This document shows positions 11,274-14,250 of a DNA stretch of 33,448 nt, piece by piece. The stretch's first letter is position 1. The number at the start of each line of letters is the position of its first letter. The notes beneath the pieces were generated by a model that saw only the letters and a program-made list of their open reading frames with translations, did not search any database and was not told the origin of the DNA. A program made the translations under genes and the position numbers. The DNA comes from Streptomyces coryli (GTDB taxonomy: Bacteria > Actinomycetota > Actinomycetes > Streptomycetales > Streptomycetaceae), in contig NZ_JAAKZV010000069.1 of the NCBI RefSeq assembly GCF_011044975.1, positions 1-33,448 of the forward strand, written 5' to 3'.

Positions 11274-12080
11274 CTAGCGGCCCGCCGCGGGGCCGCTGCC
11301 CGACGCCCCGGATGACCCCGGCGACAGCGCGGAGGCGGCCGGCGCGAGCTGCGAGTTCGATACGACCGGGAGCACCGGCGTGTAGAAGACGGACTCCGGC
11401 GAGGCCGGTGCCGTATAGGGATAGACCATCGTGCGCGGGCCGCGGCGGTCCCGCTCGTCCGCCTGCGCGCCGCCGCCCGGCGTCGCGCTCGGAGCGACCT
11501 GCCCGGCGTCCGCGCCCGAGCCGGAGCCGGCCGGGGTGGTGAGGCCGCCGCGGCCGCCGTCCGGGGTGCCGCTGGAGTCGACCGCCGCCTCGATCGGCAG
11601 CGCCCCGCCCAGCGCGATCGCCGCGAAGGACACCGCACCGGCGGCGGCGAAGGCGAAGCGGCGGCCGCGCGAAGCCGAACCAGGTCGCGCTATTTCGTGG
11701 ATGCGGAACCCCTGCTCCGCGCCGCCCATCTCACCGGCCGCGACCAGCTCGGCCGCGCGCGTGCGCGGCACCGGGGTCAGGTCGGCGGCCGGGTCGGGGC
11801 GGAAGGGATTGCCGCCGCCGGGGGTGAGTTCGTCGTCGTCGAGACCGGGCAGGTTCTGCAGCCGGGCCAGCAGGCCGGCCGAGGGGGGCGGCGGGGCCGC
11901 GGCCGAGAACACGCTCTTCAGCCGCCGCTGCGCGTCCGCCTCCGCCTTGCACTTCGGGCAGGTGGCCAGGTGCGCCAGCACCCGGTCGCGGGTGTCGTGG
12001 CACAGTTCGCCGTCGACCAGCGCCGCGAGCCGGTCACCCAGGTGGTGCTCGGCAGGCGAAGACCCGCCCGAGGTGGTCAC
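11274..12080 (-). CDS. Zinc-finger anti-sigma factor (RseA-like)
   Basis: A 268-residue protein. The N-terminal anti-sigma domain carries the Hx3Cx2C zinc motif (His37, Cys41, Cys44, in AHLATCPKC) with the preceding LVDGEL helix typical of ZAS proteins. A Pro-rich linker leads to a probable membrane helix ([22 protein letters not shown], about 140-162). A low-complexity extracytoplasmic tail follows. It should bind and silence the sigma factor encoded just upstream until envelope stress releases it. The GTG at 12080 overlaps the sigma stop by 4 nt (GTGA), so the two are translationally coupled and made at matched levels. Gene order matches mycobacterial sigE-rseA-htrA. Confidence 0.93.
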
Positions 12081-12853
12081 GCGATCCCGCCCTCCCCTGC
12101 CACGGCGAACGCGACGCGCTCCGCACGCGCCTCGGGCGAGCGGTGCTGCAGCGCCTTGCGCAGGTGCGAACGGCCGCGGTGGATACGGCTGCGGACGGTG
12201 CCCAGCTTCACGCCGAGGGTGGCGGCGATCTCCTCGTACGACAGGCCCTCGATGTCGCAGAGCACGACCGCGGCGCGGAACTCCGGCGCAAGGGTGTCCA
12301 GCGCCTGCTGGACGTCGGCGTCGAAGTGGGTGTCATTGAAGTGCTGGTGCGGGGTGGGCTCCTTGGACGGCAGCCGCTCCGCGGCGTCGTCGCCGAGCGC
12401 GTCGAAGCGGATCCGCTGCTTGCGGCGCACGGTGTCCAGGAACAGGTTGGTCGTGATGCGGTGCAGCCAGCCCTCGAAGGTGCCCGGCGTGTACGTCGAC
12501 AGGGAGCGGAAGACGCGGACGAAGACCTCCTGGGTGAGGTCCTCGGCGTCGTGCTGATTGCCCGTCAGACGGTAGGCGAGGCGGTAGACGCGGCCCGAGT
12601 GGGTGCTGACGATCTCCTCCCATGAAGGCGGAGTCCACCCCTGGGCCGACTTGTCGTCCACGGTGAAACGGGCCGTCTTGACGTCGGCGGCCGCGGCGGG
12701 AGCGGAGTCGGCGGTACGGGTGCTGTCAGCGGTGTCGGTCACGGATTGTGGCTCGCCCTTTAGCCTGCGGAAACGCGGTCGCGCTCCGCCGAGGCTGGAC
12801 GTGGCCGCACCTCCCCTTGTGGCTCTGGTGATGTCCAGTAGGCCCCCTACCAT
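12077..12853 (-). CDS. ECF sigma factor, mycobacterial SigE-like
   Basis: A 258-residue RNA polymerase sigma factor. Region 2 ([26 protein letters not shown], with the -10 recognition part [22 protein letters not shown]) and region 4 ([31 protein letters not shown], with the HTH helix [18 protein letters not shown]) are intact. About 80 residues of variable sequence precede region 2. The ATG at 12853 has GAGG 5 nt upstream; GTG at 12859 and the internal GTG at 12742 are alternatives, and a multi-start arrangement is known for mycobacterial sigE. It should direct envelope-stress transcription and is held by the coupled anti-sigma factor. An ECF-type promoter upstream suggests autoregulation. 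The name sigE is avoided because Streptomyces uses it for a different sigma factor. Confidence 0.95.
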
Positions 12854-12954
12854 AACCACCTCGCCCGTTAGCTCCGGATAAGCTCATCTGCCCTGGTTTT
12901 TGCCGCGTCCGGCGGAGCGTAAGCCCGTCGTAAGCGTGACCCGACGAACTGCCT

Positions 12955-12980
12955 AACGCCCGGTCCCGACGGCAGGTTCC
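12955..12980 (-). promoter_or_regulatory. ECF-type promoter of the sigma/anti-sigma operon
   Basis: On the minus strand, GGAACC (12980-12975) is followed after 16 bp by CGTTA (12958-12954). This matches the -35/-10 pattern known for mycobacterial SigE-type ECF factors. Transcription would start near 12946, giving a leader of about 90 nt before the ATG at 12853. It implies that the sigma factor, or a related one, activates its own operon. Confidence 0.65.
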
Positions 12981-13022
12981 CGACCGCAGCGGATACAGTC
13001 ACGTTCGACGTCGGACGGGGAC

Positions 13023-13036
13023 GGGAGACTGCCATT
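13023..13036 (+). promoter_or_regulatory. Ribosome-binding site with probable AUU start codon
   Basis: GGGAG (13023-13027) lies 6 nt upstream of an in-frame ATT (13034-13036). Between here and the first canonical start (GTG 13121) the frame encodes residues resembling the N-terminus of O-methyltransferase homologues, and there is no ATG, GTG, TTG or CTG codon in that stretch. Confidence 0.55.
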
Positions 13037-13711
13037 TCTGGCAACCGGCAGGCGAACTGGTCGTTCGCGGAAGGCTACGGCGCAGCGGGCACCGGGCCGG
13101 CCGAGAGCGACCGGGGCGCGGTGAGCGAGGCGCTGCTGTGGGCACGGCAGCGGGCCCGCGACTCCGGCGTACGCACCGTGACCCCCGGCACCGGCGCCGC
13201 CCTGCGGCTGCTGGCCGCCACCGCCGACGCCAAGGCCGTCGCCGAGATCGGCACCGGCACCGGGGTCTCCGGCATCCATCTGCTGCAGGGCATGCGCGCG
13301 GACGGCGTGCTGACGACGGTCGATCCGGAGCCGGAGCGGCAGCAGTTCGCCCGCCAGGCCTTCCGCGCGGCGGGCTTCGCCGCGAACCGGGCGCGGATCA
13401 TCGTCGGCCGGGCCATGGACGTGCTGCCCCGTCTTGCCGACGGCGGATACGACATGGTCTTCGTCGACGGCGACCGCACCGAGTGCCTGGACTGCCTAGC
13501 TGAATCGTTGCGCCTGCTGCGGCCCGGCGGCCTGGTGTGCTTCGAAGGCGTCTTCGCCGAGGGCCGTACGGTCGGGGCGCCGGGCGCGCAGCCCGGCGAG
13601 GTGGCGCAGCTGCGCGAGCTGCTACGCGCGGTGAAGGAGAGCCCGGAGCTGGTGCCGGCGCTGCTGCCGGTGGGGGACGGGCTGCTGTGCGCGGTGAAGC
13701 GGGGCACGTAA
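13034..13711 (+). CDS. SAM-dependent O-methyltransferase
   Basis: A class I methyltransferase of the catechol O-methyltransferase type (methyltransf_3). Motif I is VAEIGTGTGVSG, followed by LTTVDPEPERQQFARQAF, then YDMVFVDGD and [15 protein letters not shown]. It transfers a methyl group from S-adenosylmethionine to an unknown substrate. Starting at GTG 13121 gives 196 residues. I extend to an ATT codon at 13034 (225 residues) because GGGAG precedes it at 6 nt and the extra NWSFAEGYG...SEALLWARQRA segment parallels the N-terminus of the mycobacterial homologue beside sigE. The start is therefore uncertain. It is divergent from the sigma operon, the same arrangement as in mycobacteria, and is followed by an 11-bp hairpin. 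Confidence 0.9.
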   Translation: MSGNRQANWSFAEGYGAAGTGPAESDRGAVSEALLWARQRARDSGVRTVTPGTGAALRLLAATADAKAVAEIGTGTGVSGIHLLQGMRADGVLTTVDPEPERQQFARQAFRAAGFAANRARIIVGRAMDVLPRLADGGYDMVFVDGDRTECLDCLAESLRLLRPGGLVCFEGVFAEGRTVGAPGAQPGEVAQLRELLRAVKESPELVPALLPVGDGLLCAVKRGT

Positions 13712-13781: not shown

Positions 13782-13949
13782 TCAGCCCACGACCTTCTTG
13801 AGAGCGTCGCCGAGAGCGTCGGCCTCATCCGGCGTCAGCTCGACGACGAGCCGCCCGCCGCCCTCGAGCGGAACGCGCATGACGATGCCCCGCCCCTCCT
13901 TGGTCACCTCGAGCGGGCCATCGCCCGTCCGCGGCTTCATGGCCGCCAT
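13782..13949 (-). CDS. DUF3117 family small protein
   Basis: A 55-residue protein, MAAMKPRTGDGPLEVTKEGR at its start, then MRVPLEGGGRLVVELTPDEADALGDAL. This matches the actinobacterial DUF3117 family, which is small, highly conserved and of unknown function. The ATG at 13949 has AGGGGA about 7 nt upstream; a longer reading to 14180 adds unrelated sequence and is rejected. In mycobacteria a DUF3117 gene sits beside tagA and near sigE, as it does here. The GATAAT hexamer at 14016-14011 may be its -10. Confidence 0.9.
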   Translation of the reverse strand: MAAMKPRTGDGPLEVTKEGRGIVMRVPLEGGGRLVVELTPDEADALGDALKKVVG

Positions 13950-14250
13950 GCTCGTTCCCCTTCCTGAAACCAGCTCATCACACCGGTATCGAACACAGTG
14001 CTTCTCGGCCATTATCCCGCATCGTGGGCCCCGATGACCAACATCGAGGCGCATCCCTTCGGCCGCACCGGCCCTTCTTCTCCCGCAAAACGTCCCAATT
14101 CGCCGATGCGCCTGCCATACTGCGTCCTTCTCGTTACCGGGCGCCGTGCTCGAACGGCGCGGAGATATGCCGTACATCACATCCCCGCGGAGGGCTGAAC
14201 GGCGGCACGATGGCTTTTACGAGCCGCCGCCGATGCCGAGGAGATGCCTG
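13950..14250. other. Intergenic region between DUF3117 and enoyl-CoA hydratase-like genes
   Basis: 301 bp with no gene I can support. For the minus strand there is a possible promoter: TTGGTC (14041-14036), 19 bp, GATAAT (14016-14011), giving a leader of about 55 nt to DUF3117. For the plus strand, CATACT (14116-14121) is a possible -10. A 7-bp hairpin (GCGCCGT/ACGGCGC, 14141-14160) would lie in the 5' leader of the hydratase gene. Confidence 0.4.
14011..14041 (-). promoter_or_regulatory. Putative promoter of the DUF3117 gene
   Basis: TTGGTC and GATAAT are spaced 19 bp apart on the minus strand. The -10 is a near-consensus vegetative hexamer; the spacer is slightly long. Confidence 0.4.

Follow-up and report, generated by a model that had tools for sequence, protein, structure and literature searches.

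Comparative evidence for a conserved AUU start codon in an O-methyltransferase gene of Streptomyces and related genomes

The question raised by the O-methyltransferase gene in the window (the whole stretch of Streptomyces coryli DNA that was analysed, 33,448 nt long) is where its translation begins. To our knowledge, the literature documents only a small number of bacterial genes that begin with anything but AUG, GUG or UUG, and such starts lie outside what standard gene finders consider. The gene is transcribed divergently from an ECF sigma factor gene (Table 1), and the corresponding gene pair of S. coelicolor is taken here to be SCO5146/SCO5147. A scan of the window sequence found no ATG, GTG or TTG in the methyltransferase frame from TAA 12920, which lies 38 codons ahead of ATT 13034, to GTG 13121. 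The initial annotation had named GTG 13121 as the first usual in-frame start codon, had found it to be devoid of a ribosome-binding site and had proposed a start at the ATT preceded by GGGAG instead. The first point was borne out by an open reading frame check, reading of the window sequence found no Shine-Dalgarno-like sequence ahead of GTG 13121, and GGGAG-N6-ATT was present as described.

Table 1. Features of the methyltransferase locus, in window coordinates
Feature	Position	Strand	Evidence
Proposed AUU start codon	13034..13036	+	ATT/ATC/ATA at the homologous place in 169/169 readable Streptomyces-type sequences
Shine-Dalgarno GGGAG, 6 nt 5' of ATT	13023..13027	+	GGAG exactly 6 nt 5' of the start codon in 164/167 Streptomyces-type sequences
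O-methyltransferase gene from ATT, 225 codons plus stop	13034..13711	+	PF01596, Rv1220c match, model
29 N-terminal codons, omitted under usual-start annotation	13034..13120	+	Conservation, predicted helices
GTG, first usual in-frame start codon; judged internal	13121..13123	+	Without Shine-Dalgarno; homologues conserved 5' of GTG
In-frame stop TAA 5' of ATT	12920..12922	+	No usual start from TAA to ATT
Divergent ECF sigma factor gene, longest ORF	12077..12859	-	Sigma70_r2, Sigma70_r4_2 (12077-12730 scanned)
Anti-sigma-like protein with zinc finger, after sigma factor gene	11274..12080	-	zf-HC2
TACAGT, -10-like element	12994..12999	+	First base 40 nt before ATT
GGAAC-N17-CGTT, ECF-type promoter-like, facing divergent sigma factor gene	12955..12980	-	Spacing identical in 167/167

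Conservation of the start was surveyed in Streptomyces-type sequences (at least 70% identity), after rows that did not differ across 450 nt of the core had been merged (183 reduced to 170). Across all loci surveyed, one whose start lay beyond the contig end (L129) and one truncated locus (L262) were excluded from start counts; two more (L181 and L213), whose start was read separately from the automatic parse, were counted. The start place of the 169 readable unique sequences, window included, was occupied by ATT 161 times, by ATC seven times and by ATA once, and never by ATG, GTG or TTG (0/169). Before merging, the 183 rows comprised 174 ATT, 7 ATC, 1 ATA and 1 cut off, i.e. AUH (AUU, AUC or AUA) in 182/182 readable rows. 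The N-terminal part, together with an ATT, ATC or ATA that has GGAG about 6 nt 5' of it, was thus kept throughout, in support of the AUU interpretation.

Out of 439 confirmed relatives the best 80 were retained, and every one of these matched residue 1 of the extended query, with ATT in 77 and ATC in 3. The first survey query had begun with Ile and had taken best hits only, and relatives were therefore surveyed anew with the start codon left free. A DNA pattern of this kind matched 252 of 295 genomes in the genus of one locus (L060); the matches listed carried ATT by eye, except for one ATC. For the 43 genomes in which the pattern was absent, the query was the core protein encoded from GTG 13121 onward, without the disputed part; it gave 41 matches, with 40 readable starts (35 ATT, 4 ATC, 1 ATA). 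The ribosome-binding site was nearly invariant in Streptomyces-type genes. GGAG-N6-ATH was present at the methyltransferase start in 80/80 of the best 80 of 439 loci; elsewhere in these 80, on both strands, it occurred 55 times (8 with ATT), and no position-fixed GGAG-N6-ATT was found, no offset bin being common to more than two loci.

The dominance of ATT at the start place is not mere Ile coding, since internal Ile codons of Streptomyces-type genes are rarely ATT (ATC 531, ATA 31, ATT 30): ATT made up 95% at the start place (159/167) versus 5% internally (30/592; Fisher p = 1e-120, nominal only, as rows are related by descent). Usage beyond that of Ile is not showable likewise in outgroups, where ATC was dominant among AUH starts (43/55). 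In 131 ungapped Streptomyces-type sequences, A and T of the start codon and the preceding GAGAGG were invariant; the codon immediately 5' of ATT varied (GTC, GCC, CCC, CTC) and is therefore not the start, and no codon position stood out 5' of ATT. Over the 34 codons 3' of ATT the third position was the most variable (0.11, 0.22 and 0.51 bits for the three positions). This was not so in the first 12 codons (0.09, 0.23 and 0.14 bits), because the stretch is conserved as DNA; Streptomyces-type DNA alone is consequently no proof of coding right after ATT, and the protein nature of the first codons rests on more distant relatives. The second residue was Thr or Ser in 166/167 Streptomyces-type sequences, and Ser, Ala, Thr or Pro in 43 of the 47 outgroup AUH loci scored (out of 55; L186-L193, near kin of L185, were excluded). 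A small second residue is expected where the initiator Met gets removed. Two loci (L127 and L128) had an in-frame TGA 7 codons 5' of ATT with no usual start between.

Relatives across the class had in common a motif around [S/T]-W-x-[FY]-A-[ED] at an overall identity of 45-58%. The structure model, which served for helices only, predicted one helix for residues 5-15 and another for residues 24-43 (mean pLDDT 92.6; residues 1-30 were its less confident part, with block means of 72-77). With this class-wide motif, tblastn matches reaching residue 1 and the predicted helices, the claim that codons 13034-13120 are protein held up, and alignment of homologues revealed conservation 5' of SEALLWAR, the lack of which the initial annotation had named as a refuting result. 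The suggested parallel with the mycobacterial N-terminus was real but loose: only the AHAEGSISEDAIVAAARERA part aligned well in L244, a locus judged mycobacterium-like from its protein.

Upstream of the start, TANNNT occurred in the same stretch of 167/167 Streptomyces-type sequences, with the -10-like TACAGTC lying 38 to 61 nt upstream of the start and length differences that were not multiples of three. We infer that TACAGT 12994 may be a promoter -10, which would leave a leader of roughly 27 nt. Sites of the GGAAC-N17-CGTT type, present in all 167 real sequences versus 18 of 3340 shuffled ones, probably represent an autoregulatory ECF promoter in the window. Directly after the methyltransferase gene, a small convergent DUF3117 gene was observed on the minus strand (13782-13952). 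SCO5146 is called a divergently encoded O-methyltransferase in PMC10433416, where TMT proteomics quantified its protein at 0.409 (cutRS mutant versus wild type); the S. coelicolor protein is therefore made. It also appears in PMC3765725 among convergent overlapping pairs affected by loss of RNase III.

Two other placements of the start have to be weighed. Were translation to begin at GTG 13121, or at a downstream codon in relatives, the conservation further upstream would reflect an element at the DNA or RNA level. Codons 1-18 are indeed unusually conserved, fourfold sites being six times less varied there than in the rest of the gene (0.15 vs 0.96 bits; 8 and 82 sites), third positions in the first 12 codons are not the most variable, and in S. 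coelicolor CutR is reported to bind the DNA that separates SCO5146 from SCO5147 (PMC10433416). However, an element of this kind sits poorly with class-wide relatives that retain the protein motif at 45-58% identity, and with two outgroup loci (L246 and L248) that carry ATG at the place of ATT. In 117/167 Streptomyces-type genes no usual codon is met downstream until codon 36, beyond the conserved ARxRA helix, and GTG 13121, which has no Shine-Dalgarno sequence, corresponds to residue 30, inside the second predicted helix; a downstream start therefore appears highly improbable. We attach just as little credence to a start further upstream, such as a TTG read without a leader in one group of Streptomyces, with ATT as an internal Ile codon. 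Going upstream in frame, a usual codon was met before a stop in 71/167 Streptomyces-type sequences (TTG 55, GTG 14, ATG 2; 41 exactly 10 codons upstream) and in 20 of 47 outgroup loci scored, and an upstream TTG, where it lies close behind the -10-like element, could be imagined as a leaderless start. Yet a stop came first in the other 96/167, none of the 71 upstream usual codons had a Shine-Dalgarno sequence, the DNA upstream of ATT shows length differences of 1 nt, and ATT is as rare among internal Ile codons as it is frequent at the start place. For the window itself, an upstream usual start is ruled out by TAA 12920, which no usual codon follows before ATT.

The near invariance of the first 18 codons after ATT at synonymous sites (13037-13090 and homologues) was not accompanied by a conserved RNA fold. 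Z-scores for RNA structure near the start were between -0.19 and 0.75 in single folds of four sequences, and a conserved hairpin around the start was dropped as a candidate, given these scores and the different folds of diverse sequences in single-sequence folding. The start codon alone is no explanation for such extreme conservation at fourfold sites, for which a binding site of CutR or another protein, or the divergent promoter region, are perhaps candidates. On the comparisons above, initiation of the window methyltransferase at AUU 13034 is strongly supported, and we consider it very likely.

The occurrence of the start beyond Streptomyces was assessed in 98 outgroup loci, of which 10 were order-level and 88 class-level (eight given with the class search and 80 fetched; ranking rows G465 down to G618 plus G407, weaker rows being left out). 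AUH after a Shine-Dalgarno sequence was seen in 55 (43 ATC, 12 ATT), a usual codon 6-9 nt after a -10-like hexamer, apparently leaderless, in 32, ATG with Shine-Dalgarno in 8 and CTG with Shine-Dalgarno in 2, and one locus was cut off; the rule-based class of five loci (L299, L232, L268, L278 and L231) had been corrected by hand, which lowered the AUH count from 56 to 55. AUC or AUU after a Shine-Dalgarno sequence of at least 5 nt was found in frame in 55 of 97 scored outgroup loci and in 0/97 in each of the other frames. At least 26 outgroup loci contained GGAGGCCGTCAT exactly, with C or T as the next base, and one (L246) had it with G. Both L246 and L248, sisters of an AUU clade, have their ATG at the same place, with an identical spacer in the former and one base less in the latter. 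Two side observations concern the remaining start types: TANNNT 6-9 nt before ATG or GTG gave the 32 loci mentioned above (L217, L218, L237, L240 and others) their leaderless look, and the two apparent CTG starts (L231 and L256) followed a strong Shine-Dalgarno sequence.

A quick, unrooted tree of 118 proteins (21 from Streptomyces-type rows, the others from 97 outgroup loci out of 98), with support below 80% at 49 of 113 inner branches, had AUH rows on both sides of its midpoint and in most large groups, and implied that AUH and other starts had given way to one another at least 13 times. Leaderless ATG was the only start in one clade of 13 rows (L240 and kin), as was Shine-Dalgarno ATG in another of 6 rows (L242 and kin). 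An AUH ancestor of the class is thus possible on this tree. The AUH start is not indispensable, given repeated switches and whole clades on AUG, and in this gene leaderless usual starts seem to take the place of non-canonical ones and vice versa. In a phylum-level sample, a relative was found in 18 of 119 genomes, three of them Streptomyces genomes already surveyed. Readable starts were ATC (L335), ATG (L336, L340) and GTG after Shine-Dalgarno (L345, L347, L348); AUH in this sample was limited to genomes also drawn in the class search, and more distant phylum relatives had GTG or ATG where readable.

The ATT-started frame matched PF01596 with 82.7 bits (E = 2.8e-23; curated cut-off 22), and its best solved relative was Rv1220c (PDB 5x7f, E = 4.5e-53), an O-methyltransferase of the same family; a tRNA 5-hydroxyuridine methyltransferase (8k1f) and YrrM (5zw3) were distant structure matches. 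Rv1220c presumably lies beside mycobacterial sigE, divergent from a sigE-type gene as in the window. The mycobacterium-like locus L244 has an apparently leaderless ATG, whereas the window has AUU with a Shine-Dalgarno sequence. An Asp-Asn pair belongs to the metal site of family-3 (COMT-like) O-methyltransferases. This pair is absent in the window, where residues 171-172 of the ATT-started protein are Glu-Gly (13544-13549), and in the alignment it was present in 30 of 40 other rows versus 0 of 13 Streptomyces-type rows (Glu-Gly, Ala-Gly or Ser-Gly). The metal site seems to have been lost in Streptomyces-type enzymes, whose use of a metal is doubtful on this evidence; the sequence family is unchanged.

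The best-known precedent is infC, which was found to start with ATC after a Shine-Dalgarno sequence in 54/54 genomes (24/24 Streptomyces-type, 30/30 order- or class-level), whatever the methyltransferase start. A genome-level loss of IF3 discrimination behind the usual starts was dropped as an explanation, as infC keeps AUC in all 54. Both genes have AUH after a strong Shine-Dalgarno sequence, conserved over great distances, but infC uses AUC and the methyltransferase AUU in Streptomyces-type genomes, and infC is autoregulated, whereas the window product is an O-methyltransferase and would have no direct feedback on IF3. In Streptomyces, according to Feeney et al. (PMC5472188), infC starts with ATC, sigR starts at GTC and is repressed by IF3, and both starts were misannotated. 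The sigR case, a close precedent that makes an IF3 link plausible for the window methyltransferase, resembles it in having a non-canonical start conserved in Streptomyces, a strong ribosome-binding site, a miss by gene finders and a sigma factor neighbourhood (PMC5472188). The differences lie in the codon class (GUC versus AUH), in the gene concerned, which is the sigma factor for sigR and the enzyme in the window, and in reach: PMC5472188 reports no sign that GTC is used in the other genera it looks at, while the methyltransferase AUH extends beyond Streptomyces. Conserved AUH starts with strong Shine-Dalgarno sequences are also described for cvfC1 (AUU) and ccpN (AUA) of Staphylococcus/Bacillus, where they lower output; in poor medium, non-canonical starts of Staphylococcus including these two yielded approximately 10% of what AUG gave, and in rich medium the ccpN start reached up to 30% (PMC13009471). 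These belong to another phylum and other gene families, and their output was measured, whereas the methyltransferase is known from sequence. The reference list of PMC13009471 points to pcnB as a further gene of this kind.

We favour the reading, with a probability of roughly 0.8, that AUU 13034 is an old, selected weak start codon which exposes the methyltransferase to IF3 discrimination, as in infC and sigR. Comparison of sequences establishes where the AUH start lies, its reading frame, its spacing and how well it is conserved; low efficiency, IF3 sensitivity and regulatory use would follow by analogy with the publications on infC, sigR and cvfC1/ccpN. AUU 13034 would be read by the formyl-methionine initiator tRNA, and an optimally spaced Shine-Dalgarno sequence in a short leader would guide the ribosome to it. 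Selection would have excluded usual starts in Streptomyces and likewise, through AUC or AUU, in many further lineages of the class, and such avoidance would keep initiation inefficient and under the IF3 start-codon check. Methyltransferase output would then fall when IF3 is plentiful and rise when IF3 is limiting or relaxed. Discrimination by IF3 at this codon appears likely; its regulated use we judge at slightly below even odds.

The true AUU start might instead act only as a static damper on a little-needed enzyme, with IF3 varying too little to regulate. This explanation overlaps the favoured one, disputing regulatory use only, and we give it about one chance in three. It is compatible with the approximately 10% of AUG output reported for Staphylococcus in poor medium (PMC13009471) and with sigR, for which PMC5472188 describes a stress-linked rise in translation from GTC as not demonstrable; repeated switches to AUG or GUG in other lineages also suggest that level, not signal, matters. 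Static damping alone, however, does not account for AUH, shared with infC, being kept over GUG or UUG or over a weaker Shine-Dalgarno sequence, and the ribosome-binding site hardly varies in Streptomyces-type genes.

This kind of start is already known from infC, sigR, cvfC1, ccpN and pcnB, and what appears new is this gene and its class-wide reach; a literature search covering few subscription papers found no published report of an AUU start for the methyltransferase. Since AUH is conserved in Streptomyces and much of the class, the annotated N-terminus is probably wrong in many genomes. On favouring AUU 13034 as a weak start read under IF3 control, one may speculate, with small odds, that the methyltransferase is an old actinobacterial member of an IF3 regulon besides infC, in which AUH was retained from an early point in the history of the class so that the amount of enzyme follows IF3 or the state of the ribosome; the enzyme would perhaps act on RNA or the translation machinery, as its distant matches to 8k1f and YrrM might hint, and so couple the fidelity of initiation to RNA modification in a loop. 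Within one gene, nature offers a series of AUU, AUC, AUA, AUG and apparently leaderless AUG or GUG starts, which is useful for asking what purpose IF3 discrimination serves outside infC.
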